Shown piece after piece: positions 7,901 to 48,156 of a stretch of DNA of 64,000 bases. Position 1 is the stretch's first letter; the number at the start of each line of letters is the position of its first letter. Location of the stretch: the NCBI RefSeq assembly GCF_022538055.1, contig NZ_JAKZAM010000006.1, positions 1-64,000 of the forward strand, given 5' to 3'. The translations under genes were made by a program, and so were the position numbers. Origin of the DNA: Cognataquiflexum nitidum (GTDB lineage: Bacteria; Bacteroidota; Bacteroidia; Cytophagales; Cyclobacteriaceae). The notes under the pieces were generated by a model that made no database searches, had not been told where the DNA came from, and saw nothing but the letters and a program-made list of their open reading frames with translations.

Positions 7901-8267
7901 AAGAAATCTCTACTATCGCAGGCCTAGTTCCGGTTCCGTTTTGTTTTGATTTTGCAAAAAAGGCGATTTTTGGTTCAAACATTCCCACTGTTTCTGTCTT
8001 GAAAAAAATGATTCCATTAAAGGAACTGATGGGTTGCACGGCCAAAGCCTTGGAACCAAAGCGCCCTTCACCCGATGCCTGAAAAACCCTCGCAGCAGTA
8101 CTCCTTACTTCATTGGCAGACCAGTTCTGCAGAAATTCATCGGGGTGGCTGACAATATCAAAATTGGCTTCGAAATCCTGCACTTGGGAAAATACCAGTT
8201 GCGATCCGAACATTCCCCGAAAGAGAAAGGTTATAAATAAGACTTTGGCAAAAAACCGGGATTCCAT
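4932..8267 (-). CDS. Large secreted protein with two lamin-tail domains
   Basis: A 1111-residue exported protein. Residues 1-27 are a signal peptide ending VFSQ. Residues about 200-560 contain Ig-like segments of the bacterial SbsA-like kind (for example ITPPVLVNVIPLASDKIIAVFSEPL). Two lamin-tail domains follow: residues about 571-685 (DIVINEIMPAPRSG, VEYVEIFNPG) and 833-940 (DVVLNEVLFNPRTG, KFVEIYN). The C-terminus, about 1040-1105, is a FlgD-like Ig fold (GIDGSLIREL, YLWDGTYTNGSKVRPGIYIIW), often seen at the end of Bacteroidota surface proteins and T9SS cargo. LTDs bind or anchor extracellular material in some bacteria, but the function here is unknown. It may be co-transcribed with the 51-residue ORF. 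Confidence 0.88.
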   Translation of the reverse strand: MESRFFAKVLFITFLFRGMFGSQLVFSQVQDFEANFDIVSHPDEFLQNWSANEVRSTAARVFQASGEGRFGSKALAVQPISSFNGIIFFKTETVGMFEPKIAFFAKSKQNGTGTRPAIVEISFAEAVSDDFQNITAVGSVQTFSNQNKGYQLFEIPIPERFHDMAELVVRIEVKNGPGTGSSARFFMDDFGIFDGDQMIDPISIKSAKLLTPYSLGVILDREIVSLVREQVTLASIPIEEVLFHTDSSFVIYSNTVIESLKIPILLENIQDKNGRITEEIEFELDNPSIQIGDILVESADQIKVSFGQFFLASSVSQTSNFLINGKNPLNVELLPNGFEVLLRLSEDLPLDMNFQIAVSNIQNSRGIPHSDPDVRSFFYDDFVEEIAVVDNRTLHIEHLVPLNQGDLNVEIQEKPEFGFQISFPKPEVIELKSNEPFEESLTYTLKLSPRTTDRGYPIPGSSRDFVWDITPPVLVNVIPLASDKIIAVFSEPLDLVFASILSNFSILAKSPRSAVLQQNATQILLEWNFVFESEKEYILQVEGLTDLKGNFLTNQSFPFQFLSPPKLKFKDIVINEIMPAPRSGNVLPNVEYVEIFNPGDRSIYLGGLQLANSKRKTTIPPFLLEPQKYIVLTPRTAAPLFANYGQVLGLSNWPTLLNSGDRVKILDPENRVIDSLAYTTATFGGSVFAQGGYSLEIVNPFLDCNIATNLKPSADPKRGTPGKQNSVYEDTPDLLPLQFIRSRLIGETSVVLSFSKILSQNLTQVSLEFQPSIPIKNIRIGDNPNELVVQFEQAIQEGIYYESKVSNLRDCTGNLFDSDQKVFFVVPSVAQSGDVVLNEVLFNPRTGAPKFVEIYNASQKFISLKDWKLANLNNDNLVANRRVLFSEEFILVPNSFLVFTTDAEKLKQEYPKSREERFIEYSSLPSYPISSGNVVFLNPDESISEILSYNDKMHHRLLKETKGISLERLSPFQPIGNPNNWHSASSSEGFATPGYQNSNVFEGNNQIGIEVEPKVFVPDAPGTQPYTTIAYKSDQAGNLATIRIFGIDGSLIRELCQNAVWGNEGFYLWDGTYTNGSKVRPGIYIIWVEIFDLQGKINQIKKTVVVGTKFQ

Positions 8268-8414
8268 ATGACTAAAAATAAAGAACAGGTTTTTGTCAAT
8301 CCGATTTTAAACGTTTAAGTGAGATAAATTTCAAAACCAACAAAAAATAAGCTGAATTATTGAAAATAAAGCAATTATATGTCGACTTGCTATCATTATT
8401 GAGAATTCTTGACT

Positions 8415-8422
8415 TACCTTTG
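8415..8422 (+). promoter_or_regulatory. -7 promoter box of asd
   Basis: TACCTTTG matches the Bacteroidota -7 consensus, 34 nt upstream of the ATG at 8457. TTG triplets at 8387 and 8399 are candidate -33 elements, but neither is at ideal spacing. Confidence 0.65.
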
Positions 8423-8456
8423 CGGTTCAATTTTAAAAAAACAATCCAAAAACAAA

Positions 8457-9446
8457 ATGAAACTAGCCGTTGTAGGAGCTACCGGATTGGTAGGCTCAGA
8501 GATCCTCGAGGTGCTGGAAGAGCACCAATTTCCATTTGATGAATTACTCCTTGTTGCAAGCGAAAGGTCCGCAGGAAAAAAGATGACTTTCAAGGGTAAG
8601 GAATACACGGTAATTGGATTGAAACAGGCTGTTTCTGAGAAGCCGGACGTTGCGATCTTCTCGGCAGGTGGAAGTACTTCATTGGAATGGGCGCCGCAAT
8701 TCGCCAAAGTAGGGACGATCGTTATTGACAACTCCTCTGCTTGGAGAATGGACCCGAGCAAAAAACTTGTGGTTCCTGAAATCAACGCCAAAGACCTGAG
8801 AATTGACGACCGCATCATTGCCAATCCAAATTGCTCTACGATACAGATGGTGTTGGCCCTGAATCCATTGAGGTTGAAATATGGTATCAAAAGAATCGTG
8901 GTCTCCACCTACCAGTCTGTGACCGGAACAGGCAAGGCAGCTGTCGATCAGATGATGGCTGAGCGTGCGGGTGTTCCTGCACAAATGGTCTATCCCCATA
9001 AAATTGACCTGAATGTATTGCCTCATATCGATGTCTTCCAGCCAAATGGGTATACCAAGGAGGAGATGAAGATGATCAATGAGACCAAAAAAATCTTCAA
9101 CGACAACAGCATTCAAGTGACTGCCACCACAGTAAGAATTCCTACGATGGGCGGACATTCTGAGTCGGTAAATGTGGAATTCCATAAGGACTTTGATTTG
9201 GATGAGGTGAGGGCAATACTTTCCAACACACCCGGTGTCATCTTGCAGGACGATCCTGCCAACAACATCTATCCAATGCCCTTGACGGCACACAAGAGAG
9301 ATGAGGTATTTGTCGGCAGGTTGAGAAGAGATGAATCCCAAGCAAATACTCTGAACATGTGGATCGTGGCTGATAACCTTAGAAAAGGAGCAGCGACCAA
9401 TGCGGTGCAAATCGCAGAATACCTGATGGAACACAGCATGGCGTGA
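8457..9446 (+). CDS. asd: Aspartate-semialdehyde dehydrogenase
   Basis: A 329-residue enzyme that reduces aspartyl-4-phosphate to aspartate-4-semialdehyde with NADPH, at the branch point to lysine/diaminopimelate, methionine and threonine. The N-terminal NADP-binding loop is VGATGLVGSEIL. The catalytic cysteine sits in IANPNCSTIQMV, and the substrate-binding segment VSTYQSVTGTGKAA and the catalytic His region MGGHSESVNVEF follow in order. The start at 8457 is chosen over an upstream TTG in frame because it lies downstream of the promoter box and gives the canonical MKLAVVGATG N-terminus. Length is normal. It appears to be a single-gene unit. Confidence 0.96.
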   Translation: MKLAVVGATGLVGSEILEVLEEHQFPFDELLLVASERSAGKKMTFKGKEYTVIGLKQAVSEKPDVAIFSAGGSTSLEWAPQFAKVGTIVIDNSSAWRMDPSKKLVVPEINAKDLRIDDRIIANPNCSTIQMVLALNPLRLKYGIKRIVVSTYQSVTGTGKAAVDQMMAERAGVPAQMVYPHKIDLNVLPHIDVFQPNGYTKEEMKMINETKKIFNDNSIQVTATTVRIPTMGGHSESVNVEFHKDFDLDEVRAILSNTPGVILQDDPANNIYPMPLTAHKRDEVFVGRLRRDESQANTLNMWIVADNLRKGAATNAVQIAEYLMEHSMA

Positions 9447-9604
9447 GTGGGGGAAAAGACCGATGACCGATGACGGATGTGGATCGAACTAAAATCCAAA
9501 ATTCAATCTTAAATCGTGAATTTTCCCTATAATTCAGTTAAGCAAATAGGTAAATATGTCCGCAGCTTTTGAAGCCCGGATATATTCCACATTTTTGTCA
9601 GGTC

Positions 9605-10789
9605 ATGGCAATTTCAATTTATTCAGCAGCTTTAAAAAAATTTGTGCAGGACCACCAATCGGAGGATCCTGCACAATTGCTTTTTGCCTATTCGGGAAAA
9701 ACCGATTTTGACCTCAAAGCGGCTGTGCAGCAGATCCAATCCCGTCACAAAGCCAAACATAAACTCCCGACTTGGACAGCCAATCAAGATCTTCTCTTTC
9801 CCGTCAGTCTTTCAATGGAGCAGGCTTCTTCTGAGGAAACCGCCAGATTTAAATCTGCTCTGGTCAAAGGGAAAACAATGATTGACCTCACCGGAGGATT
9901 TGGCGTTGATACTTTTTTCCTTTCGGAAAACTTCCAAAAAGCCATTTATTGTGAGAGGAATGAGGAATTGGCAGCGATTGTCCGTCACAATTTTGACCTG
10001 CTCAAACCCAGTAAATTTGAAATTGCGGAAGGTGATTCATTGGCATACATTTCCAAATCAGATGAAATCTTTGACCTGACCTATGTCGATCCGGCAAGAA
10101 GAGGCGACCACAATCAGAAGCTGTACAAATTGGCGGATTGCGAGCCGGATATTGTCAGCAATTGGGGTTTGCTCCAATCGAGATCCAATGCCATATTGAT
10201 CAAAGCCTCCCCGATGCTGGACATCAAGCAGGCCTTGCATGAAATTCCGGAGATCCAGAAAGTATGGGTTATTTCTGTCAAAAATGAAGTCAAGGAAGTT
10301 TTGCTCCTTTGGGAAAAAGGGATATCAATTGGCGAAAGAATTATCCAAGCGGTCGATTTGCAGTCGGATGGTCCAAAGGGATTTTCCTTTACTTACGAAG
10401 AGGAAGAATCCAGCGAAAGTCTATTAGGTGAGGTGGGTAAATACCTGATAGAGCCTTATGCTTCAGTGTTGAAAGCCGGGGCATTCAGGAGTTTCGGAAA
10501 AAGGTTTGGACTGAAAAAACTCCATCCCAATTCCCATCTGTATGCCTGTGGGGACTTGACTCAGGGAATTCCCGGAAGAATATTCGAAGTCATCCAAGAA
10601 ATCAGAAACCCAAAAAAAGAGCTGAAGCAACTGTTCCCAACGGGAAAAGTCAATGTCATTACCAGAAATTACGCTTTATCTGCCGACGAACTCAAGAAAA
10701 AATATAAACTCCAAGACGGCGGAAAGGAATTCCTGATCGGGACAAAGGTGGGGGAAAAGTTTGGGTTGTTTTTTTGTAGGTTATTTTAA
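9605..10789 (+). CDS. Class I SAM-dependent methyltransferase with THUMP-like domain
   Basis: This is a 394-residue protein from the ATG at 9605 (an upstream in-frame start at 9569 adds an unlikely N-terminus). The SAM-binding motif I is MIDLTGGFGVDTFFL near residue 100, the acidic loop is YCERNEEL, and the post-I catalytic-type motif is TYVDPARRG near residue 170. The C-terminal part (RSFGKRFGLKKLHPNSHLYACG onward, under 20-residue segments) matches the THUMP-like domain seen in Bacteroidota homologues. Related proteins are annotated as RNA or rRNA methyltransferase-like, but the substrate is not established. It stands alone, 158 bp after asd. Confidence 0.8.
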   Translation: MAISIYSAALKKFVQDHQSEDPAQLLFAYSGKTDFDLKAAVQQIQSRHKAKHKLPTWTANQDLLFPVSLSMEQASSEETARFKSALVKGKTMIDLTGGFGVDTFFLSENFQKAIYCERNEELAAIVRHNFDLLKPSKFEIAEGDSLAYISKSDEIFDLTYVDPARRGDHNQKLYKLADCEPDIVSNWGLLQSRSNAILIKASPMLDIKQALHEIPEIQKVWVISVKNEVKEVLLLWEKGISIGERIIQAVDLQSDGPKGFSFTYEEEESSESLLGEVGKYLIEPYASVLKAGAFRSFGKRFGLKKLHPNSHLYACGDLTQGIPGRIFEVIQEIRNPKKELKQLFPTGKVNVITRNYALSADELKKKYKLQDGGKEFLIGTKVGEKFGLFFCRLF

Positions 10790-10849
10790 TCTTAAAACTG
10801 CATCAATTTTTCAACTACACTCACCACTTTAAACTGGAATTTAAATGTT

Positions 10850-11221
10850 GGTCCCGCAGACCACGCAGACTGACGCAGATGATTACGATAAAATGTCCCG
10901 AAAAAACAACTGACCTGTCCATCCCTTCTGCGAACATCCGCGAAATCAGCGGAAGAAAAGTATTCAAAAATTCCTGATTTGGTCCCGCAGACCACGCAGA
11001 CTGACGCAGATGATTACGATAAAGTGTCCCGAAAAAACAACTGACCTGTCAATCCCTTCTGCGAACATCCGCGAAATCAGCGGAAGAAAAGTATTCAAAA
11101 ATTCCTGATTTGGTCCCGCAGATCGCGCAGACTGACGCAGATGATTACGATAAAATGTCCCGAGAAACAACTGACCTGTCAATCCCTTCTGCGAACATCC
11201 GCGAAATCAGCGGGAGAAAAG
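10850..11221. repeat. Three tandem copies of a 131-bp intergenic repeat
   Basis: Copies start at 10850, 10981 and 11112, each opening with GGTCCCGCAGA and containing ACGCAGACTGACGCAGATGA, CTTCTGCGAACATCCGCGAA and ATCAGCGG. They are nearly identical, with single-base changes. The third copy stops just before the stop codon of the hydrolase gene at 11222. The CCGCAGA...GACGCAGAT and GCGAAATCAGCGG phrases are of a kind widely seen between genes in Bacteroidota. The short reading frames inside look spurious. Confidence 0.9.
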
Positions 11222-12490
11222 TTATTTGTAGCTGAACCTGAAAGGTGAAAGGTCCGGGGAATTTTCTTTTTTTCTTTTTAATTCCAATTGGTACAAATAT
11301 TCCCCAAGCTCAGCAAAAAACGGAAAACCAATGGAATCGTACTCATAGACATCGTCATTGAGGGTTTCGTCGGCATTGGTGTAAATGACAGCTGACACAA
11401 AAAACTCCGTTCCCGTCTCAAAATCCACAAAATAAGAACCGTCCAAAAGGAGCCCATAGGCATTTCCGGTTTTGTTGAAAATCCTGAAGCGCTCCGGAAT
11501 GGAGCTTTTGTCCGTTCCGAATTTGAAAAACTTAGAGTAGCTGTCGTAAAATTCTGGTAATTCATATTTAGGGTAATCACTTTCCAATGGCAACATGGAC
11601 ATGTATTTCAAGACAAATTCCCTGTCTGCTTCACTGATCTGAAACCTTTGCTCAGGAGAAAATTTTTGAGGGAAAATGATCCTTTGGACGACACCATGAA
11701 GGTCCGAAAGCGCAAACTTATTTTTGAAGGTAAAATCCATCGGCGTATTTACCAATTCACCATTGCTGTAGTAAGCCTTTCCGATGTTTGGATGGTTTGT
11801 GTTGGCGTAGATTTCTGAGGTTTCTCTTGAAGGTATTTCCATCAAAATATTCCCTACACTGTCCACAAAACGAATCGGGTTGAAATGTCTGTTTTCCCCT
11901 TCGCTCATCGGCATGCTAAGCCGGTGGTTGATGATTGTATTGTTCAGCCCTTTTTCCTTAAGCTTTGTATTGATATAATCTTGTCCCAAGAGTTCGTACA
12001 ACCTGTTATACGCATCATTGTCGCTGACAAGGAGGATTTTTTTGATGTATTGGGCGATGCTCGGCAGGTTATTTTCTGCCGAACTGTCAACCAAAGCGGG
12101 AAGCTGAGAAGGCCTGACCGAATCGGTAAGCATGATGGTATTTGCAGTAAGTCCGGCTATGTTTTGCCCTGCCAACCATTCCAAAGCCAATATCGCAACC
12201 GGAAGCTTGACTGTACTTGCGGGATAAAAATAAACCTGATCATCCAGACCCACATTGAAGTCCCTGAAAACAGGATTTCCCAAAGAATCCCGGTCAATCT
12301 GTGTGTACAGAATCTGTGCTTTGTAGGTCTCAGGTTGTTCCAAAACCTCCCTGAGAACAGGATAGCTTTCCGGGATATCCGCAAATGGAACAGGCTCTTT
12401 TTGGGAACAGGAAATCAACAGAATACCGATCAGGAAAAGCAAAACAGGTTTTTGTAACATGCGCATCAAATTTGACTTCAAGTAAGCCAT
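11222..12490 (-). CDS. Class A beta-lactamase-like serine hydrolase lipoprotein
   Basis: A 422-residue lipoprotein from the ATG at 12490 (a TTG six codons upstream is possible). The signal peptide ends at a lipobox in ILLISC. The penicillin-binding triad is complete: SxxK in PASTVK near residue 92, SDN in LLVSDNDAYN, and KTG in FNKTGNAYG. This is the class A beta-lactamase/PBP fold, but the protein is longer than true beta-lactamases and lacks an evident Omega-loop ExxLN signature. It may be an envelope peptidase or esterase rather than a resistance enzyme. The 3' end touches the 131-bp tandem repeats. The BioF-like gene upstream is 37 bp away on the same strand. Confidence 0.82.
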   Translation of the reverse strand: MAYLKSNLMRMLQKPVLLFLIGILLISCSQKEPVPFADIPESYPVLREVLEQPETYKAQILYTQIDRDSLGNPVFRDFNVGLDDQVYFYPASTVKLPVAILALEWLAGQNIAGLTANTIMLTDSVRPSQLPALVDSSAENNLPSIAQYIKKILLVSDNDAYNRLYELLGQDYINTKLKEKGLNNTIINHRLSMPMSEGENRHFNPIRFVDSVGNILMEIPSRETSEIYANTNHPNIGKAYYSNGELVNTPMDFTFKNKFALSDLHGVVQRIIFPQKFSPEQRFQISEADREFVLKYMSMLPLESDYPKYELPEFYDSYSKFFKFGTDKSSIPERFRIFNKTGNAYGLLLDGSYFVDFETGTEFFVSAVIYTNADETLNDDVYEYDSIGFPFFAELGEYLYQLELKRKKENSPDLSPFRFSYK

Positions 12491-12527
12491 ATTCCTTTTT
12501 TTACCCAAACAACAGGTTTAAAAATCT

Positions 12528-13592
12528 TCAGATAAGGCTTGTAATGGCCTTGTAGAGTAGCAGGATATCCGACTCTTCGTGACAGCCCGAAACCACAATC
12601 CTGTTTGCAAATGGATCAGTTGGCTTTGGGTAAGGAAAGGAGGAAACGATGATACCTGCCTCTTCAAGCTCGGTAACCCAATTTTGATCAGGAAAGGAGA
12701 AAACAGGAAAATCGCCGGATTGAAGGAATTCGGATTGTCCTCCCAATAAACTTTTGAACAGGCTGAGGTTGGATTTGGATTTTGCGCGCTGCGCTTCAAA
12801 AAGATGCTGTCCCTGAAGAAATGCCTGCAAAAATCCCGGCGTCGGTGGCGAGGAAGTACGGAAAATAGACATTTGGGAGATTCCTGAAATGGTTTTTTCA
12901 TCTGCCAAAATGATTCCGGCAGGAAGGGAAAGTCCTTTTCCCAAAGAACCAGATATGACTAAATTCACAGGAAGGTTTTTCCATTGGCTATACGTTCCAA
13001 AAATATCCTCACCCAAAATCCCTAAGGCATGGCTGTCGTCGATGAGTAAAGTATAATGGTGCCGTGATGGCAGTTCCCTTATCCAATCAAAATCATGGAC
13101 AGCAGGTTTTAGCGGATCAACGGCATTGGCCAAAATCAGGATCTTGGAGGTGGGAAGATTCTCGCAGGTTTCCTTGCAATAGCCGACCCAATAATCAAAA
13201 CTTGGATTGGGGAAGGGATGAAGCCCCTCTGCCAAAACCGCGGGATGCGTATCAGGAGCGATAAAAATCTGATAGGCATCTTTCTTTAAATAAGAGATGG
13301 CTGCAGTTCCGGCTAGATAGCCGCTGCTCCAAACCAGGGATTTTTCAGCCTTTGCCTTTTCTGCAAAAAAAACCTCAAACTGCTCGTAGACAGACAAACG
13401 AACATTATTGACCCGGCTGAGTCCATGGCTGATGCCGTACTTGGAGATTCCTTCGATGACCAGTTTTTCGAATGCTTCCACCCCTCCCATACCCAGATAG
13501 GCCGTTCCGCTAAAAAACAAAAACTCCCTGCCATCTTGGACGACGGTTCTTCCGATTTTGGAGTGGAGTCCAAAGGGTTTTTGGATGGTCAT
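12528..13592 (-). CDS. BioF-like PLP-dependent aminotransferase-fold enzyme
   Basis: A 354-residue fold-type I PLP enzyme of the alpha-oxoamine synthase group, which includes 8-amino-7-oxononanoate synthase. The PLP lysine is K219 in SGSLGKGLSLPAG, and the cofactor-binding Asp lies in LLIDDSHALGILG. The N-terminal region (FLFFSGTAYLGMGG, YGISHGLSRVNNVRLSVYE) has the BioF/KBL shape, although the usual GSGGSR loop is replaced by GISHGLSR. No other biotin gene is nearby and the protein is shorter than typical BioF, so it may act in another acyl-CoA/amino-acid condensation. It is probably transcribed with the downstream hydrolase. Confidence 0.8.
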   Translation of the reverse strand: MTIQKPFGLHSKIGRTVVQDGREFLFFSGTAYLGMGGVEAFEKLVIEGISKYGISHGLSRVNNVRLSVYEQFEVFFAEKAKAEKSLVWSSGYLAGTAAISYLKKDAYQIFIAPDTHPAVLAEGLHPFPNPSFDYWVGYCKETCENLPTSKILILANAVDPLKPAVHDFDWIRELPSRHHYTLLIDDSHALGILGEDIFGTYSQWKNLPVNLVISGSLGKGLSLPAGIILADEKTISGISQMSIFRTSSPPTPGFLQAFLQGQHLFEAQRAKSKSNLSLFKSLLGGQSEFLQSGDFPVFSFPDQNWVTELEEAGIIVSSFPYPKPTDPFANRIVVSGCHEESDILLLYKAITSLI

Positions 13593-13735
13593 GAGCTTGG
13601 GATATTTGGATTTGGGCCGAAGGTTGAAAATCTGACAAGCTGTAAATTAATTAAAGATGAGATATTTTTCACTTTAACTAGCTCAAAGAAAGAATCCCAA
13701 TTTAGCAAAATGACTGAGTTAGGGTATTTTTGGAT

Positions 13736-14161
13736 TTAATCCCTCATCCCAAATTGATCTATGACCTGTTTCCCATTTTTTGTCAGAGGGAAACTTAATT
13801 CTTTCCAAGCTGTTCCTTCGATGCCTGTTAAGGTAATTCCGTCCTTGGTTCTGGTGATTGTAAATAAATAATCAGCGAGTTTGGGATCTTTATAAGTTGA
13901 TACTTTCTCTAATTGTGTCATCCCATATTCATCAATTGCTTGCGGTTTGTTGTTAGCAAGATTAAAGCTTAAATCAATCCAGGCACTTCCTTCAGAGCTT
14001 TTCATTTTAAGCTCATTATCAGTTTTTTCAATTGTAATTTTGAAATCTTTGAGGTCTGATAAACTCTGATCCTGCGCATTTGATGAAAAGCCTAAAGTAA
14101 ATAAGAATGAAGCTATCAGGGACTTTGTATATATGCTTTTGAATTTTGGTTGAATTCTCAT
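13736..14161 (-). CDS. Small secreted protein with an internal duplication
   Basis: A 141-residue protein from the ATG at 14161. The frame extends upstream to 14254, but that part lacks a signal-peptide shape. The signal peptide (KSLIASFLFTLGFSSNAQ) indicates export. The mature protein consists of two similar halves: EGSAWIDLSFNLANNKPQAI followed by DEYGM, and EGTAWKELSFPLTKNGKQVI followed by DQFGM. The repeat unit is about 60 residues, probably a small beta-structure. I do not recognise a named family. It stands alone, divergent from the lipoprotein-Wzi pair to the right. Confidence 0.78.
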   Translation of the reverse strand: MRIQPKFKSIYTKSLIASFLFTLGFSSNAQDQSLSDLKDFKITIEKTDNELKMKSSEGSAWIDLSFNLANNKPQAIDEYGMTQLEKVSTYKDPKLADYLFTITRTKDGITLTGIEGTAWKELSFPLTKNGKQVIDQFGMRD

Positions 14162-40150: not shown

Positions 40151-41989
40151 ATGCAGGCATCCTCCTACCTCGTTGAAGACTACCATTCCCTTCCGGATCT
40201 GCCGGGAGTGTACAAGTATTTCAATGCCGAAAATGAACTGATTTATGTAGGCAAGGCCAAGAGCCTGAAGAAAAGAGTGGCTAGCTATTTTGTCAAAACC
40301 CTCGGCATCAATTACAAAACCAAAAGGATGGTGAAGGAGATCCGAAAGATCGAAATCACCATCGTGGACACAGAGTTTGATGCCCTGCTGCTGGAAAATA
40401 ACCTGATCAAAAAGATCCAGCCCAAGTACAACATCATGCTCAAGGATGACAAGACCTATCCTTACCTCCTGCTGACCAATGAGCCTTTTCCCCGCTTATT
40501 TCCCACCCGGAGAATGATCCCCGGAAGGGGAACGTACTTCGGGCCTTTTGCCAGTGTCAAAGGGATGAACAATGTTCTCGAACTGATCCGCAGCATCTTT
40601 ACCATCCGCACCTGCCGCCTCGACCTGAGTCCGCACAAGATCAAAGAAAAGAAGTACAAGGTCTGTCTCGAGTACCATATCGGCAATTGCCTTGGGCCCT
40701 GCGAAGGACTGCAGGTGGAATCCGATTACATGAAGGAGGTCGAGCAGGCCAAGCATATCCTCAAGGGAAATCTGGGCGTGCCCAAAATCCACTTCAAAAA
40801 GAAAATGCAGGAGGCTGCGGAAAGTTTGGCTTTTGAAAGGGCACACTATTTCAAAAACAAACTCGAACTCCTCGAAAAATACCAAGCCAAGTCCATGGTC
40901 GCCAATCCCGCCATCCACGACCTCGACGTCTTTGGGATAGAGTCGGATGAGAAATCTGCCTATGTCAACTTCCTCAAAATCAAAAACGGCGCCGTCATCC
41001 TCACCAAAACCGTCGAGCTCAAAAAGAAACTGGATGAAACGGACGGAGAACTGCTTCTGACGGCCATCATCCGCCTTAGGGACCAATTCAACTCCGAGTC
41101 ACTGGAAATTATCGCCAATATTCCCCTGGAAGAGGAATTTGAAGGACTGAACTTTGCCGTCCCAAAAATCGGGGACAAAAAGAAACTCGTAGAACTCTCC
41201 CTCAAAAACGCCAAGTACTATAAAAAGGAAAAGCTTTTGGCTTCAGGTGAAGTGCAGGACAAAAAAAACCGCGTGCTCCGGCAGCTGCAATCGGACCTTT
41301 CTCTCAAGGAACTCCCGGTCACGATCGAGTGCTTTGACAACTCCAATATCCAAGGTACAAATCCCGTGGCAAGTATGGTCTGCTTTATCAACGGCAAGCC
41401 CGCCAACAAAGAATACCGACACTTCCATATCAAGACCGTCACCGGTGCCAATGACTTTGCGAGTATGAAGGAGGTCGTGGGCAGAAGGTATGAACGGATC
41501 CTCGAGGAGGCAAAACCACTTCCCAACCTGATCGTGGTTGATGGGGGAAAGGGCCAACTTTCTTCCGCCGTGGAAGCGCTGAAGGAACTCGGCATCTATG
41601 GTCAGGTACCGATCATCGGCATCGCCAAAAGGCTGGAGGAAATCTACTTTCCCGATGACAACTACCCGCTGCATATCGACAAAAAATCCGAATCCCTGCG
41701 TCTGATCCAAAAGATCCGGGACGAAGCACACCGCTTTGCGATCACCTTTCACCGTCAGGTCCGCAGCAAAAACGCCTTCAACACCAAGCTGACCGACATC
41801 GAGGGCATCGGCGAGAACACCGCCAACAAACTACTGAAGCACTTCCGCTCCTTCAAAAAAATCCAGGAAGCCGATATCGAAGCCCTTGCCGAAGTGGTCG
41901 GCAAAGACAAAGCCGAGAGGGTTTATTTGGCGGTGAGGCCGGAGGGGGGTCAGGATGAGGGGGAGTCAAGCTCCATAGGTGACAGATAG
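40151..41989 (+). CDS. uvrC: Excinuclease ABC subunit C
   Basis: A 612-residue nucleotide excision repair nuclease making the 3' and 5' incisions with UvrB. The GIY-YIG domain lies near residues 14-92 (LPGVYKYFNAENELIYVGKA). A UVR motif follows near 205-240, then a UvrC-specific RNase H-like domain (IECFDNSNIQGTNPVASMVC, LIVVDGGKGQLSSA) and C-terminal helix-hairpin-helix repeats (LTDIEGIGENTANKLLKHF). The last residues after AVRPEGG are species-specific. The start is supported by the N-terminal length. The 3' end is 76 bp from the convergent helicase gene. Confidence 0.97.
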   Translation: MQASSYLVEDYHSLPDLPGVYKYFNAENELIYVGKAKSLKKRVASYFVKTLGINYKTKRMVKEIRKIEITIVDTEFDALLLENNLIKKIQPKYNIMLKDDKTYPYLLLTNEPFPRLFPTRRMIPGRGTYFGPFASVKGMNNVLELIRSIFTIRTCRLDLSPHKIKEKKYKVCLEYHIGNCLGPCEGLQVESDYMKEVEQAKHILKGNLGVPKIHFKKKMQEAAESLAFERAHYFKNKLELLEKYQAKSMVANPAIHDLDVFGIESDEKSAYVNFLKIKNGAVILTKTVELKKKLDETDGELLLTAIIRLRDQFNSESLEIIANIPLEEEFEGLNFAVPKIGDKKKLVELSLKNAKYYKKEKLLASGEVQDKKNRVLRQLQSDLSLKELPVTIECFDNSNIQGTNPVASMVCFINGKPANKEYRHFHIKTVTGANDFASMKEVVGRRYERILEEAKPLPNLIVVDGGKGQLSSAVEALKELGIYGQVPIIGIAKRLEEIYFPDDNYPLHIDKKSESLRLIQKIRDEAHRFAITFHRQVRSKNAFNTKLTDIEGIGENTANKLLKHFRSFKKIQEADIEALAEVVGKDKAERVYLAVRPEGGQDEGESSSIGDR

Positions 41990-42065
41990 TTATTTAGTTT
42001 TCTTCGATTAACGCATCAACTTGGATTTTTAAGGAGCTAATGTGTATAGCTTAAACGATTTGGCG

Positions 42066-45000
42066 TTAGTTTTTAACTTCGATGATTTCTACAAAATTGT
42101 CAAGATCACCAATTTTTACAATGTCACCTGTGCAGTGTCCGAGTATAGATGACGCTAAAGGTGATTTTAAACTTATTTTTTGAAAGCCATCAGAAAATTC
42201 ATTCTTACCAGCAAACTCTACGATAAGTACTCTAATATCATTGCCATTATTCAAATACTTCACAGTGACTTTACTTCCTAATTTAATTTGATCAATAATG
42301 AGCTTTAACTGAGATTTTCCATTCTTTTCAATGGATTTAATTATCGAAATTTCTTTATCCACATCTAAAAAATTTGTTTCGGCAACGTAACTTTCAACCA
42401 TTCCAACATTGTCGGTAAATGCAAATGAAGTTTTTGAACGGTCAATTAGATTATGGTCATTTCTTGATTCAACACTCCTTATAAACTCAATTAGCCGTTT
42501 TGTTTCTCTTTGCGGATTTCTCCACCAATTCGTACTCCAAATTCTATGGAATACAAAACCATGGCTTTCTAAAATTTTTTGTCTATGAATGTCGTGAAGG
42601 TATGCTTCTCTACTAGAATGATATTTAGCCCCATCACATTCAATTGCAATTTTTGGTACTCCTGCAAGTTTAGGGTCATAAACAATATCAATTCGGAATT
42701 CAGAAACTTTCATTTGAGGAATTAACTTTGATTCATCTACTTCATCAATTAAACGCTGATAAACTTCTTCTTCAAAAGGTGACTCTAACTCTCCAAGACT
42801 TCTCGGATTGAAAGTGCTGTTTATGGTTGAGTTCTCGCTAAGAGCAGTTAAAATTCCTATTCTAGAATCATCATTTCCTTCGCTTATGGCTTTGCTGTAG
42901 GCTAAATATGCGTAGAAAACTGCTCGTTTGTTATTAGAACCTTCAGTTATCAGTGATTCTTTATAATTCATAAATGCTGTTTCTGGAACGGATGAACATA
43001 CATAAACTTTATACTTAGCTCTTGTGATAATTACATTTAGAAGTTTGTATCCTTTTGAATGATTAATCGGGCCAAAACGCTGTGCAAATTTGCCGTCTTT
43101 TCCTGGTCCATATGTTGTTGACAGAATAATTACATCTCGTTCATCCCCTTGAATATTTTCTAAGTTCTTGATGAACATTCCATTTTCTTCCAACTCCTGA
43201 ATTTTAGTGTTGAACGCTTCAAACTTTGAGAACTTTTGCCTCTCTAGGATTTTGCTTTTTATATGATTCCGTTGGGCAATATTAAAAGTAGCAATTCCGA
43301 CGGTTGGATATTTTCCATTTGGAAGTCGATTTAAATTATTATCAAGAATTGATAAAACCATTTCAGCTTCTGCATCATTAATGTGGTCAGAGAAGGTTCC
43401 ATTTACTTGAATATACTTTATTGGTGTATAATCAAATGTATTTGGCAGTGGTTTAAGTCTTTGATTGTAAAATGCGTAATTTGAAAAATCTATAAGGAAG
43501 GGATGTCTTGACCTGTAATGAAAATCAAGGTGTCTTTTCTCAAAATTAAGTTCTGTGCCAAAGTCTAAAAGGGATTCACAAGACAAAAGGATATTATCTT
43601 TATCCACAAAAATTTCATCTTCATCTTCAATATCGTCTTCGTCTTCAATGGTGCCGTCAAAAACTTTACTAAAATAATTTGAAGGAGGCATTTGATGTTC
43701 ATCACCTGCAATTATTTTCTGCTTTCCTTTCAATATTGCAGGCAGGTTATCTTCCAAACGAAGCTGACTAGCTTCGTCAAACATTACAATGTCAAAATAC
43801 CCATTCATCCCTTGAAATAGGTTACTTGCTACATCAGGGGAAGTAAGAATTATTGGAAAAAATGTTGTAAACAATTCTGGGTCAAATTGAACTATTTGAC
43901 GTAAAGAAAGGCGTTTGAACCGGTTGCTACTACGCTTATTATATAAATTTTCAACTGAGAGATTTGTATTTCGTAGCTCAAATTTTCTTGATGTCTGAAT
44001 TTGCCTAGAGAACCAAAATTCCCTAATAAATTTTAATTGCTCTTTCTCTAAACCACCCAAAGTTCCATTTAGCTCTATGTGATCAAAGTCATTTGTGGGC
44101 AAATCAATATTTGCTGAATTAAGGAGTAATGAATTTAAATAATTTACTAGAAAAGCCTTTCGCCAATCTTTTTTACCCTTTAATTCATTAATGATAAGTT
44201 TATTTTCAGAAGTGAGACTATTGTAAAATTGAAACCACTTGAAATCAATCAGAAATCTTTCGGTATCTTTAAAATATTTTTTTGATTCTGCTATCAAAGA
44301 ATCAATCTCTATCAAGACTTGTGTATATTTTCTAGAATTGATGGTAACATTAGAAAGATTATCAGAATTAATCTCAACTTTTAGATTGGTGACTGCTTTT
44401 AATAATTTTGGAAACCATATTTTTTGCCACCAATTTTTATTATGAATTAGATCTTTTATTCTAGTGTAATCATTTTCATATTTTTTAAATTTGTCAGAAA
44501 TTACTTTTTCAAGTTGGTATGGATTTTCTCCCTGAAATTTAGAAGTATTTATAAATGGAATAAAATTTATACTTTGAAAATCCTTAAATAAAATTTGAGC
44601 CCTCCCGACCAATTCCATAAAATCCGTCAATTCTTGAGAATTAAACTTGAATTGTGATTTATTAATTTTTATTGTGTGGTCTTCCCCAAATCCATTAAGT
44701 TCAGCTAATAGAATTCCCACAATGGCTGACCAAGACTTTTCACCTAATAACTTTTCACCTAATTTTTTATGCTTTCCATTTATCGACTCAATTAGGGTTT
44801 TTGCTTTATTGACAAGATTGTCAAGAGAATCCTTTGAATATGTGTAAGTGTAGCTTCTATAAGATGAGTTGTCAACTCTGTCTCTAACCGAATCAACGAC
44901 GGTTTTGCGATCTTTAACTATGTCTCGAATTAATACACATTGGTAGTTTAGATTCTTTTCAATGAGTGCATTATGTAAAACTTCCAAGGCTGTCCTTTTT

Positions 45001-46037
45001 TCGCAAACTACAATGGTCTTTCTTTGATTCTCTAGCGCGTTGATAAGGATTGCTGATAATGTTTGACTTTTGCCTGTGCCCGGAGGACCTTGAATAAGAA
45101 TATTTCTTTTTGTTTGCAAAGAATGTAAAATACCTTGTTGGGATGGATCTGTTTCTACCGAAGAAATTGGTTGAAAAGTGTGATTTTCTAGATCGCGAAG
45201 ATCAAAAATTAGATCTTCCAAATTCATCAAATTAGAATAATCGTTTATAATATTTTGTTTTTGGACTTCAAAAATTGAAAACAAGCCACCAAAATCGATA
45301 ACTGCATTGGTGGAATTAATTGGAAGCTCATCGTAATGTTTTTTTTCGCCGATTGAAACAATTTTTCCAAGTTTTAGGCTATAATCTTCTTTAATGTTAG
45401 AAGGAACGTAAGTATTAATTTCTTTTATAAGCTTTACACAGATTTCAAGTAATTCATCCTTAGAGATCAGCCCATCATCAAGCATTTCACTTGGAATCTG
45501 CTTTATTTCCAAATTTGAATCCGATTGTAAATGATTGATTAAAACTTCATTCAAATAAATCGGGTCGTCTTCATTTCTGTTAATTTCCCAAGTATTGAAT
45601 TCTTTGGTTCTTTTAATTCTTAATGACCAAATTAGAATTGGAGCGACTGTGAGTTTGTTGTCTGATTGGTCTCGTCTAACAAGAATTGGAAAACCGAATC
45701 CGAAGGTGTTGATTCCTTTTTCTGATTCAATAGCCTCTGTCTGATTAATTAAATTTTCAAAGGATTTTGTGATCCTAACTAATTGCGTTTGATCATCTTC
45801 AAATAGAGTGTTTAAGTCAGGAACATTTCCCTTCCAACTAATCCTGAATTTTAATGGCTGTTCGGAAAGTAATCTTTCTATGAAACTGTTGGGAAGATTC
45901 TTATCAATATGAGATAGTCTGGTTAAGTCAAACTTGTATCTTGAATTTGCAGGTATTGCATTTAGATGAACCCCTCTTCGATTACCTATTTTTAGTCTCT
46001 TTTGAAGTTCATTTAATAATTTATCTGTAAGTTCCAT
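42066..46037 (-). CDS. SF1 helicase-nuclease fused to a GreA/GreB-type C-terminal domain
   Basis: A 1323-residue protein. Residues 1-300 resemble an N-terminal region without a firm family name. The UPF1/SF1 helicase core has GPPGTGKS at 317-324, MFDEAS at 752-757, GDEHQMPPS at 778-786, HYRSRHP near 840, IQGDERDVIILS near 963-974 and NVIITRAK at 1001-1008. A PD-(D/E)XK endonuclease of the MTES_1575/Vsr-like group covers about 1080-1185: ESPFEEEVYQRL, FRIDIVYD, IAIECDGAKYH and HRIWSTNWWRNP. The last 75 residues (VTVKYL, ISLKSPLASSILGHCTGDIV) match the C-terminal FKBP-like domain of GreA/GreB, which binds RNA polymerase. Large helicase-nuclease proteins are common phage-defence candidates; that role here is inference. 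The gene is A+T-rich. Confidence 0.88.
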   Translation of the reverse strand: MELTDKLLNELQKRLKIGNRRGVHLNAIPANSRYKFDLTRLSHIDKNLPNSFIERLLSEQPLKFRISWKGNVPDLNTLFEDDQTQLVRITKSFENLINQTEAIESEKGINTFGFGFPILVRRDQSDNKLTVAPILIWSLRIKRTKEFNTWEINRNEDDPIYLNEVLINHLQSDSNLEIKQIPSEMLDDGLISKDELLEICVKLIKEINTYVPSNIKEDYSLKLGKIVSIGEKKHYDELPINSTNAVIDFGGLFSIFEVQKQNIINDYSNLMNLEDLIFDLRDLENHTFQPISSVETDPSQQGILHSLQTKRNILIQGPPGTGKSQTLSAILINALENQRKTIVVCEKRTALEVLHNALIEKNLNYQCVLIRDIVKDRKTVVDSVRDRVDNSSYRSYTYTYSKDSLDNLVNKAKTLIESINGKHKKLGEKLLGEKSWSAIVGILLAELNGFGEDHTIKINKSQFKFNSQELTDFMELVGRAQILFKDFQSINFIPFINTSKFQGENPYQLEKVISDKFKKYENDYTRIKDLIHNKNWWQKIWFPKLLKAVTNLKVEINSDNLSNVTINSRKYTQVLIEIDSLIAESKKYFKDTERFLIDFKWFQFYNSLTSENKLIINELKGKKDWRKAFLVNYLNSLLLNSANIDLPTNDFDHIELNGTLGGLEKEQLKFIREFWFSRQIQTSRKFELRNTNLSVENLYNKRSSNRFKRLSLRQIVQFDPELFTTFFPIILTSPDVASNLFQGMNGYFDIVMFDEASQLRLEDNLPAILKGKQKIIAGDEHQMPPSNYFSKVFDGTIEDEDDIEDEDEIFVDKDNILLSCESLLDFGTELNFEKRHLDFHYRSRHPFLIDFSNYAFYNQRLKPLPNTFDYTPIKYIQVNGTFSDHINDAEAEMVLSILDNNLNRLPNGKYPTVGIATFNIAQRNHIKSKILERQKFSKFEAFNTKIQELEENGMFIKNLENIQGDERDVIILSTTYGPGKDGKFAQRFGPINHSKGYKLLNVIITRAKYKVYVCSSVPETAFMNYKESLITEGSNNKRAVFYAYLAYSKAISEGNDDSRIGILTALSENSTINSTFNPRSLGELESPFEEEVYQRLIDEVDESKLIPQMKVSEFRIDIVYDPKLAGVPKIAIECDGAKYHSSREAYLHDIHRQKILESHGFVFHRIWSTNWWRNPQRETKRLIEFIRSVESRNDHNLIDRSKTSFAFTDNVGMVESYVAETNFLDVDKEISIIKSIEKNGKSQLKLIIDQIKLGSKVTVKYLNNGNDIRVLIVEFAGKNEFSDGFQKISLKSPLASSILGHCTGDIVKIGDLDNFVEIIEVKN

Positions 46038-46137
46038 TTTACTTATTTAATGTGTTTTTAAAAATTCAAGTATTTTCAGGTTTTTAAAACTGTGATATTA
46101 CTTATTTTTTAGTTAAATTGTTTGAATACTGACCTTG

Positions 46138-46167
46138 CAAAGCTTACCCTCATAACGCACTACCCAA
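46138..46167 (-). promoter_or_regulatory. Possible promoter of the helicase-nuclease gene
   Basis: Read on the minus strand, TTG (46167-46165) and TAAGCTTTG (46146-46138) are 18 bp apart; the second box has one extra base compared with TAnnTTTG. It overlaps the 3' end of the 161-residue gene and lies about 100 nt before the helicase ATG. Confidence 0.35.
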
Positions 46168-46645
46168 TAAAATCCGATCGATCCTTTTTTGGATCAAATT
46201 GGATTTCTAAATCTGAACCATTCCAAATGGCTTCGGCACTTTCAAGGCGAAAAGTATCTCCTTGGTTCCAAGTAGATCCGACATAATCTTCAATCAAGTC
46301 TTTGATAAAAACCCTTTCTCCAACTTGGATGTCTTTAGGAATCAGATAAGCCGCAAAGGGTGATTTGAAACTGTAGGGATAATACCATGTCCAGTCAATG
46401 ACAGTGTCAAATTCTCTGGTATCCTCCATAACCATATCGCCGCGATAATCTCCCAACACTTCAATTTCCCCTGTTTCTTTGTATTGAACGACTTTATACT
46501 TTGTGCTTATATCCTCAGACGGGATCACTTTTTTTATCAATGGTTTAAATCCATTTTTCACAGCCTGATTGATGCTTTTTTCATCCCTTACAGTTTCAAT
46601 GATCCGAAGTTTTGGTGTAGTTTTATTTCTGTCCGAATGAGCCAT
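46160..46645 (-). CDS. Uncharacterised 161-residue protein of the helicase cassette
   Basis: A soluble 161-residue protein with no signal peptide. The N-terminal 40 residues are charged (MAHSDRNKTTPKLRIIETVR). The rest appears beta-rich, with YKVVQYKETGEIEVLGDYRG, the aromatic cluster DWTWYYPYSFKSPFAAYLIP, and IQVGERVFIKDLIEDYVGST, the last of which resembles a beta-barrel loop. I do not recognise a family. It overlaps the 3' end of the four-cysteine gene by 23 bp, so translation is likely coupled. The helicase gene starts 122 bp further on the same strand. Confidence 0.75.
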   Translation of the reverse strand: MAHSDRNKTTPKLRIIETVRDEKSINQAVKNGFKPLIKKVIPSEDISTKYKVVQYKETGEIEVLGDYRGDMVMEDTREFDTVIDWTWYYPYSFKSPFAAYLIPKDIQVGERVFIKDLIEDYVGSTWNQGDTFRLESAEAIWNGSDLEIQFDPKKDRSDFIG

Positions 46646-46901
46646 TTGAGGTAAGTTTTACATTGTCTTGATTTAAATCGATTTTTAAACAAACCTCAGG
46701 ATTTTGTTTGACCATCTTTAGGAGTTCTGAATCCCCAAGGTGTTCTGTATTGATGATAAAATGGTCACAATTTGAACATTTCCTTCTATTGGAGTCGGTT
46801 CCTTCTAGTGCCGCCCAATTCATTTTATAAGGGCAATACAATTGCTTGATAAATTCTCCCTGATCTGTAAAAACATCTTTGGTTATTGGGTCAAATTTCA
46901 T
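46623..46901 (-). CDS. Small four-cysteine zinc-ribbon-like protein
   Basis: A 92-residue protein with cysteines at 23, 42, 45 and 71, in CPYKMNWAAL, RRKCSNCDHFI and NPEVCLKIDL. The pattern CxxxW, then RxCxxC, then a second region with VCL is close to a small bacterial family (C...W..L...RhC..C...V.dl....) usually of unknown function. It could bind one zinc ion or an iron-sulfur cluster. It has no signal peptide. A perfect inverted repeat lies 41 nt upstream. It is the first gene of the run of three that ends with the helicase-nuclease. Confidence 0.75.
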   Translation of the reverse strand: MKFDPITKDVFTDQGEFIKQLYCPYKMNWAALEGTDSNRRKCSNCDHFIINTEHLGDSELLKMVKQNPEVCLKIDLNQDNVKLTSNGSFGQK

Positions 46902-46941
46902 TTGTCATTAATCCTTGGGCTGAAAAAAAGATGGATTATCA

Positions 46942-46962
46942 AAAAGTGTAGGTGACACTTTT
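46942..46962. promoter_or_regulatory. Perfect inverted repeat upstream of the cassette
   Basis: AAAAGTGT and ACACTTTT are separated by AGGTG (21 bp in all), 41 bp before the ATG at 46901. The symmetry suits a dimeric helix-turn-helix operator. It could also be a weak terminator, but the T-run is short. Confidence 0.5.
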
Positions 46963-47170
46963 CAATTACCTAAACTTACTCCCTTTTAGTTACAAATCCA
47001 ATCCGCCCATCAGACGAATTTTTTGATTTGAGGCCTAATAATTTATTCAGAAGTGAAAAAGTGATCCATCAGTAACTTTGAAAAAGGACCTATGTAGCAA
47101 AAATGAATGCCCGCTCTAAAAAAAAGACTTTTTATGTATTAAAATTGAATTCACCTGAATTGAAAAAGAA
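46963..47170. other. Gene-free A+T-rich stretch left of the repeat region
   Basis: No coding potential, known promoter box or strong hairpin is visible in this A+T-rich stretch. It separates the putative operator from the 145-bp dispersed repeat. Confidence 0.5.
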
Positions 47171-47315
47171 TATGGGTATCCGCAATTTTGCATGTTGTGC
47201 TTGATGAGACTTTCCTTGATGCGGGTACTTGTCCACGGACGACGGGTCTACTGTACACCGAACAGTTAACTGTTCTACAAATCTAATTTGTTTGGCTATG
47301 TGCAATAAAGCGGAC
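47171..47315 (+). repeat. 145-bp dispersed repeat, copy A
   Basis: This aligns with 48851-48995 in the same orientation, roughly two-thirds identical by eye. Both share ACTTGTCCACGGACGAC, TTTGTTTGGCTA and TCGCAAT/CCGCAAT. This copy also contains a GAACAGTTAACTGTTC palindrome. No reading frame is conserved between the copies. Confidence 0.7.
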
Positions 47316-47352
47316 ACACAAAATTCAAAATCTATTCAGGTGTAATAAAAAA

Positions 47353-47377
47353 GACTCTTAAGAAATATAAAAAGAGT
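47353..47377 (-). terminator. Terminator of the SDR gene
   Basis: Read on the minus strand, ACTCTT pairs with AAGAGT across a 12-nt A+T-rich loop and is followed by CTTTTTTATT, about 20 nt after the SDR stop at 47395. Confidence 0.65.
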
Positions 47378-47394
47378 ACTGATAGATTTTTATT

Positions 47395-48156
47395 CTACTG
47401 AACATTGATACCGCCATCGATCACCTGTGTCGTACCTGTGATAAACTGACTGTCATCGCTTGCCAAAAACAAGACGAGTTTGGCAATCTCGATGGGCTTG
47501 GCATACCGGCCAAGTGGGATGGTCAGCTCGAGTTGCTTCTTGACCGCATCACCCTGACCCGGAGAAAATCCTTCTTCGAGCGAGCGCATCATGCGGTTGT
47601 CGACCGGGGAAGGATGCACACTGTTGACACGGATTTTTCTAGGGGCAGCCTCCACCGAAGTCGCCCGCATGATGCCTACGCCGGCATGCTTGCTGATGAT
47701 GTAGGCACTGACATTGGGACTGCCAAGCAATCCTGCCACAGAGGAGGTGATGATGATGCTGCCGCCGTCATTCATATGGGGCAAGACGTATTTATTTCCC
47801 AACCATACACCCCGCACGTTGACGGCAATGACTTTGTCAAACATTTCTTCCGGGTAGTCCACGATCGGTTTGACCGTTCCCTCAATTCCTGCATTGTTAA
47901 AAAAGACATCGATTTTCCCAAAGGCTTTTACTGCTGTGTCCACGTACCTTTGGACATCCGCAGATTTGCTCACATCCGCCACACAATACTGCACGGCTTT
48001 TCCTCCCAAATCAGTCATGGCCTTTTTGAGAGGCTCTTCCTCCAAATCTACCAACAGGACTTTTGCGCCTTCTTCTAAAAATAGCTTGGCTGTGGTCATG
48101 CCGATACTGCCTGCACCACCGGTAATGATGGCAACCTTGTTCTCTAATTTTTTCAT
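47395..48156 (-). CDS. SDR family oxidoreductase
   Basis: A 253-residue classical short-chain dehydrogenase. The NAD(P)-binding motif is TGGAGSIG at residues 12-19, NNAG follows, and the catalytic Ser and YxxxK occur in ITSSVAGLLG and SAYIISKHAG. The C-terminal part (PLGRYAKPIEIAKLVLFLAS, FITGTTQVIDGGINV) is typical. VDLEEEP has an acidic residue after the second strand, which favours NAD over NADP. The substrate is not evident. The gene lies between repeat copies and is followed by a terminator, so it is a single-gene unit. Confidence 0.9.
   Translation of the reverse strand: MKKLENKVAIITGGAGSIGMTTAKLFLEEGAKVLLVDLEEEPLKKAMTDLGGKAVQYCVADVSKSADVQRYVDTAVKAFGKIDVFFNNAGIEGTVKPIVDYPEEMFDKVIAVNVRGVWLGNKYVLPHMNDGGSIIITSSVAGLLGSPNVSAYIISKHAGVGIMRATSVEAAPRKIRVNSVHPSPVDNRMMRSLEEGFSPGQGDAVKKQLELTIPLGRYAKPIEIAKLVLFLASDDSQFITGTTQVIDGGINVQ

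Follow-up and report, generated by a model that had tools for sequence, protein, structure and literature searches.

The helicase-nucleases Hhe, ProA and PDC-S37 are classed in profile libraries as anti-phage or candidate proteins. A DUF3320 C-terminal region is a feature of Hhe. A GreA/GreB C-terminal domain (GreA/B-C) is part of the TPR-GreA/B-C-PIN systems of Kaur et al. The 2021 paper presents them as conflict systems predicted to act on RNA polymerase (RNAP) hijacked to transcribe viral DNA (PMC8195603). Here we analysed a 64,000-nucleotide stretch of Cognataquiflexum nitidum (contig NZ_JAKZAM010000006.1, positions 1 to 64,000), called the window in the following, in which one gene (42066..46037, minus strand) encodes a helicase-nuclease of 1,323 amino acids (aa) that ends in a GreA/GreB domain. 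We computed its domains, their conservation, the intact motifs, the repeated change of its tail and the genomic locations. At about even confidence, we read it as a defence effector encoded by one gene and aimed at phages or other mobile elements, of the DUF4011/MTES_1575 superfamily 1 (SF1) helicase-nuclease type, which would be brought to its target by RNAP.

The protein is encoded by one uninterrupted open reading frame (ORF), and all five of its Pfam domains exceeded the curated cut-offs. The N-terminal region had a DUF4011 match (residues 87-170, 45528..45779, minus strand as all the following; E 4.1e-6, 27.3 bits against a cut-off of 22.2). The SF1 helicase consisted of an AAA_11 part (residues 298-785, 43683..45146; E 7.1e-14) and an AAA_12 part (residues 833-1014, 42996..43541; E 1e-13), with intact Walker A (GPPGTGKS, residues 317-324) and Walker B (DEASQ) motifs. 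It was followed by an MTES_1575 Vsr-like nuclease, recognized by Pfam and by fold (residues 1088-1186, 42480..42776; E 3.5e-28, 97.9 bits against 38.2), with an ECDG motif at residues 1133-1136. A variable linker (residues 1187-1243, 42309..42479), mostly of low predicted local distance difference test (pLDDT) values and with one short helix, led to the GreA/GreB C-terminal, FKBP-like domain (residues 1244-1323, 42069..42308; Pfam match 1249-1321, and fold). The first-pass annotation of this DNA had placed a helicase, an MTES_1575-like nuclease and a GreA/GreB domain in one protein, and the Pfam results, with the fold for the last two, agreed, the proposed boundaries being right within ~20 residues. 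The DUF4011 domain had not been named there.

The nuclease residues D1117 and E1133-C-D1135-G were invariant in two alignments of the window protein and its relatives, with ten rows each. The nuclease part of the structural model resembled the I-Bth0305I homing endonuclease domain (3r3p; Z 12.4, root-mean-square deviation (rmsd) 3.1, 96 residues; VIA-align). A model of residues 1-300 gave no PDB match at E ≤ 0.001 (Foldseek). Compared with most orthologues, the window protein is without ~140 residues of a helicase insert (1,323 versus ~1,460 aa); the gap falls at ~residues 530-550, about 44388-44450, and the relative at locus L066 is also without part of the insert.

By its profile matches, the window protein belongs with the DUF4011/MTES_1575 SF1 helicase-nucleases (Hhe, ProA, PDC-S37), with which it has the same helicase and nuclease core and the DUF4011 domain in common. 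Taking an SF1 helicase plus MTES_1575 as the Hhe trait is our reading of the matches, and the window protein has both. The PADLOC profiles gave E 4.3e-136 for PDC-S37, in three stretches of which the best covered 856-1353 of 1550 model positions, and E 2.2e-78 for Hhe. With the NCBIfam models, ProA (NF058533) matched with E 4.4e-131 and 438.8 bits, and Hhe (NF042953) with E 5e-103 and 345.8 bits. Both scores were under the curated cut-offs, of 1500 and 2000 respectively, and full membership in Hhe or ProA was therefore rejected. The Hhe, ProA and PDC-S37 models have 1,550-1,911 aa, whereas the window protein is shorter, and it ends in GreA/B-C where many DUF4011/MTES_1575 relatives carry DUF3320. 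DUF3320, TPR and PIN were absent from the 25 Pfam families listed for it, out of 29 reaching E ≤ 1.

The MTES_1575 protein of Microbacterium testaceum, which gave the Pfam family its name, likewise combines an SF1 helicase with a Vsr-type restriction endonuclease; unlike the window protein, it was described in 2013 with two winged helix-turn-helix (wHTH) domains, overlapping DUF3320, and with HEPN and transglutaminase domains (passages of PMC3710099). The TPR-GreA/B-C-PIN systems have in common with the window protein a GreA/B-C domain in a predicted counter-invader protein, with RNAP on viral DNA as the predicted site (passages of PMC8195603), whereas in the window protein an SF1 helicase and a Vsr-like nuclease form the effector, and Gre is the last domain. 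The first-pass annotation had claimed that no described system follows this logic; the claim fails because these passages describe systems predicted to be RNAP-associated. The paper's passages on helicases, figures and source data aside, mention no helicase-nuclease with GreA/B-C, its text gave no match to Vsr, DUF4011 or SF1, and a literature search that left most subscription journals, supplements and figures uncovered found no paper on such a protein. Because the passages on helicases do not mention it, the architecture may be undescribed, while the targeting logic has a precedent.

GreA, GreB, Gfh1 and Rnk share the C-terminal FKBP-like domain with the window protein, which differs in being fused to a helicase-nuclease and in having no recognized N-terminal coiled coil with an acidic tip. 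Among helicase-like proteins with a Gre-like element, HelD differs in that it is not known to have a nuclease. HelD is a helicase-like NTPase whose Gre-like arm engages the RNAP secondary channel (passages of PMC7749165). Its motor and Gre-like element are points of likeness; however, HelD inserts an N-terminal coiled coil, whereas the Gre element recognized in the window protein is the globular C-domain, at the opposite end, with the DUF4011 match in the N-terminal region.

The evidence for the Gre tail came from sequence, predicted fold and conservation. In the whole protein, GreA_GreB matched significantly (E 1.1e-8, 35.4 bits against a cut-off of 26.9), and the last 90 residues scanned separately gave it as the sole Pfam match (E 1.3e-10). 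When the whole genome was searched in six frames with PF01272, three places were over the cut-off: a 159-aa frame, a 232-aa frame and the C-terminus of the window protein. The AlphaFold2 model of residues 1060-1323 (mean pLDDT 67, predicted TM score 0.47) had two fairly confident parts joined by the low-confidence linker; averaged over blocks of ten residues, the Gre part had pLDDT values of 76-89. Its top fourteen PDB matches were GreA, GreB, Gfh1, GreA/Gfh1 chimera or Rnk-type entries (Foldseek), and the predicted fold of the tail was that of GreA (Escherichia coli 1grj; Z 12.0, rmsd 2.7, 71 residues; VIA-align).

Searched with a profile of 13 fused tails, the PDB sequences gave GreA 1grj as the top match (E 2.3e-4), with Gfh1, a GreA/GreB entry and Rnk next; no FKBP was among the 10 sequences at E ≤ 1, which included two serine-protease entries (E 0.31 and 0.53). 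All 13 aligned tails matched at E ≤ 0.01, a count that is not a census, the tails having been picked for their presence. A loop proline and a later GD were present in at least 90% of them. The loop SP was RP in L152 and L173, AP in L183 and SL in L072. The ratio of nonsynonymous to synonymous substitution rates (dN/dS) of the Gre part was 0.04-0.18, with purifying selection in seven of seven pairs (Nei-Gojobori), and that of the linker 0.06-0.47; the ratios are rough because dS of the Gre part exceeded 1 in five of the seven pairs. An origin by chance or as a frame artefact was rejected, given the single ORF and a tail that is conserved and under purifying selection. A Gre coiled coil was not recognized in the linker before the tail, and the two best greA models matched only from position 78 or 85 (31.4 and 32.2 bits versus 139 and 145). 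With the acidic coiled coil absent, the protein is not expected to cleave transcripts.

Gre-tailed orthologues were found in one genome of the same family (G029, 63% identical) and at seven further loci from several Bacteroidota families (L072, L073, L074, L076, L077, L078 and L081). The class sample added L215 and L216, with frames of 1,463 and 1,462 aa. Among the 390 genomes of the order sample, only the match in the own genome ran through the Gre part. The four other species examined from the genus had no orthologue, their sole match being a helicase paralogue (frames of 1,315-1,341 aa, residues 664-1054). From this distribution among the genus, order and class samples, the Gre-tailed gene is patchy. 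The first-pass annotation could have been undone if all close relatives were without the domain; nine of the ten rows of the window clade keep it, and the exception, L075, stops before it.

Of 59 relatives, 48 had a match, and in most of these it came from the helicase paralogue type, whose frames are mostly 1,310-1,460 aa long. Copies of ~1,340 aa without a Gre domain were seen at L067 (5046-9047, minus strand) and G000:C10. By reading, the C-terminus of the paralogue resembles a degenerate version of the nuclease domain. The own copy of the paralogue had no PF01272 match. At least six of 395 class-sample genomes, the own one included, had a Gre match in a frame longer than 1,000 aa (five helicase-nucleases and one sacsin-like protein), and PF01272 in 395 phylum genomes gave frames of up to 319 aa among the matches listed. 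No relative was confirmed on viral contigs scanned with P0001 alone. P0001 matched two phage records, both partial, and the Gre tail of the window protein had no match against plasmids at E 1e-3.

What follows the nuclease differed between relatives. In the best 80 of the 304 relatives from a scan of genome contigs, the final 150 residues of each locus's best frame (E ≤ 0.01; at least L084, L094 and L125 being partial or split frames) carried DUF3320 in 31, GreA_GreB in seven and WGR in four. The census left the four WGR members unnamed; the ends of L126, L138, L144 and L145 read like WGR. Judging from these sequences, the position after the nuclease is a swappable C-terminal adaptor slot. In a quick tree built from the helicase-nuclease core (93 rows; two of the 94 loci, L084 and L125, were dropped for want of a usable match), the Gre label required five changes, gains or losses, of which at least four were forced by starred branches. 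With L215-L218 added and L184 out (96 rows), there were six changes, five of them forced. One inherited Gre fusion, tested on the quick tree as a single clade (12 rows versus 79, L184 and L075 left out, the constraint set after the first tree was seen), was rejected by the approximately unbiased test (p 1.67e-5). Outside the window clade, Gre tails were found in L152 and the 77% identical L173, both contigs of a viral collection, on the plasmids of Rhizobium leguminosarum (L183) and Microvirga (L184), and in L217 and L218 of the class sample. L087, the sister row of L218, is without a Gre tail, and the long branches of L184 and L217 have an uncertain position.

The genomic location and the neighbours of some relatives suggest a defence role. 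Between uvrC (40151-41989, plus strand) and an SDR gene (47395-48156, minus strand) lie the window gene and a pair of small ORFs unrelated to it. This interval (41990..47394) is variable, and in two of four sister species it holds clear restriction-modification genes. In G003, where the 9 kb read after uvrC did not reach the SDR gene, we found an MNT/HepT pair, an HsdR with EcoR124_C, an AAA_13 protein and, by sequence, a possible HsdS. G004 had an M.Eco57I-like methylase and an NgoFVII-like PLD nuclease. In G002 the interval was ~1.6 kb, with a DUF4357 protein, and in G001 an MNT-like ORF, recognized by sequence only, was among other genes. A DUF4011 gene also flanks a Pseudomonas defence hotspot (passages of PMC10250203).

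Several Gre-tailed genes elsewhere, for whose neighbourhoods the first-pass annotation had proposed a survey among defence islands, lie beside defence genes. At L152 and L173 the neighbours include type I restriction-modification genes. The stop codon of the Gre-tailed gene at L152 overlaps the hsdM start, and hsdS and hsdR come next; at L173 a GmrSD gene and hsd-like frames come after it, the latter named by their likeness to L152 only. AbiJ, DUF4276 and AAA_21 were ~5.5 kb away on either side at L066. Within ~6 kb there were Mrr and an SNF2-PLD protein at L076, and AAA_21, DUF4276 and SEFIR/TIR at L078. DUF2130 was within ~6 kb at L072, the next ORF at L218 was a KAP-type NTPase, and at L215 a HEPN_Apea-like ORF below the cut-off (21.9 versus 24.4 bits) adjoins. 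An AAA_21 and DUF4276 pair lies near two Gre-tailed genes of different Bacteroidota (L066 563-2336, L078 2891-4804).

Just upstream of the window gene, a 161-aa protein (46160-46645, minus strand) is preceded by a small cysteine-containing ORF. The 161-aa ORF was rejected as a partner of the system, the best tblastn match in loci L064-L155 having only E 0.67. It had matches in four of 148 family genomes, the own one included. The two-gene pair recurs in L170 and L171, which are two of these four, with no helicase in the parts listed. A scan for promoters and terminators gave no excess relative to shuffles.

For the working of the protein, family and fold of the tail point to a predicted tethering to RNAP. 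Docking on RNAP, a DNA substrate and the way in which invading DNA would be singled out are our inferences. The Gre C-domain would dock where the RNAP secondary channel opens, on the beta-prime rim helices; the globular domain of GreB is stated to bind these helices with high affinity (passages of PMC7749165). Docking would put the helicase-nuclease beside the transcription complex on the invading DNA, where the motor could load at the exposed bubble or R-loop, leaving the Vsr-like domain to cut the DNA. Invading transcription might be told from host transcription by RNAP that is stalled or modified by a phage, or by a guard mode in which the nuclease is restrained by RNAP.

Several findings weigh against an effector guided by RNAP. 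Clear restriction-modification genes were in only two of the four sister-species intervals. No defence gene was recognized beside L073, L074, L077, L081, L216 and L217, whose ORF lists were read by eye, with a family scan for one L074 ORF (no match), and the annotated neighbours of L183 name none. L075 lost the tail with its other parts still open, so the tail can be dispensed with. No N-terminal Gre coiled coil with an acidic tip was found in the window protein. The Pfam GreA_GreB cut-off was passed by four of ten Gre-tailed proteins scanned whole (the window protein, L152 with 27.5 bits, L184 with 31.9 and L215); L183 (25.6), L217 (22.5) and L219 (25.8) were below it, and L072, L081 and L218 had no whole-protein match at E ≤ 0.001. 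Several tails, being sub-threshold in Pfam, therefore rest on the fused-tail profile (L217 E 8.9e-21, L218 E 3.7e-9) and on the alignment; the last 96 residues of L218 gave GreA_GreB 20.1 bits. Trigger factor, SlyD and FKBPs, which have the fold in common, were in the VIA list of the tail at Z 6.6-7.6, and FKBP-like folds have other binding roles. The tail could be a repurposed FKBP-like protein-binding module without a grip on RNAP, which binds another partner and regulates the nuclease. The slot does accept unrelated modules, and the loop SP is replaced in four tails; however, the tail profile met only Gre-type proteins first and no FKBP, and the loop proline and the later GD are kept. We consider such a module unlikely; its partner could be a protein of a phage, a client of a chaperone or a second copy of the tail.

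Two further explanations were weighed. The protein might sit idle on host RNAP, anchored by its Gre domain, until a phage seizes, modifies or displaces the polymerase and so frees or activates the nuclease. The anatomy would be identical, a tether alone may serve targeting or restraint, and defence systems often keep toxic effectors restrained. However, the wHTH (PMC3710099) and WGR tails of relatives are DNA-binding types, which fit targeting better than restraint, and we hold such guarding to be distinctly unlikely. It is improbable that the gene is a cellular factor for transcription-coupled repair or for clearing R-loops or stalled RNAP, analogous to HelD or Mfd. The helicase-like motor and Gre-like arm of HelD, a Z of 6.7 between the tail model and a stretch of HelD (VIA), and the widespread paralogue type are in its favour, whereas the patchy distribution, the variable interval, the restriction-modification operon neighbours and the kept nuclease domain speak against it.

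The Gre tail was also found on a different kind of protein. L219 encodes a 1,250-aa sacsin/TmtA-like frame with a Gre tail (7428-11177, minus strand; TmtA E 2.9e-51; tail E 1.2e-8 with the fused-tail profile), overlapping the frame of an SNF2 protein of 962 aa that matches DrmD (11153-14038, minus strand; 9e-107). The last 400 residues of the frame were matched in one of 21 surrounding genomes, its own, and the case therefore rests on one genome. Somewhat short of even confidence, we propose that prokaryotic immunity uses GreA/B-C as a general, swappable "transcription tether" that has repeatedly been joined to different defence engines and would guide nucleases to invading DNA under active transcription, with transcription as the recognition cue. 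Under this proposal, and equally tentatively, the engines would be the helicase-nucleases (the window clade, L218, L152/L173, L183, L184 and L217), the sacsin/TmtA-like ATPase of L219 and the TPR-PIN proteins.

A slot that takes wHTH, WGR or an RNAP-binding type of Gre domain predicts that the tail sets the recognition cue. If this is true, transcription would serve, through one 80-residue domain, as the address for the Gre-tailed version, an immune enzyme that would cut DNA.

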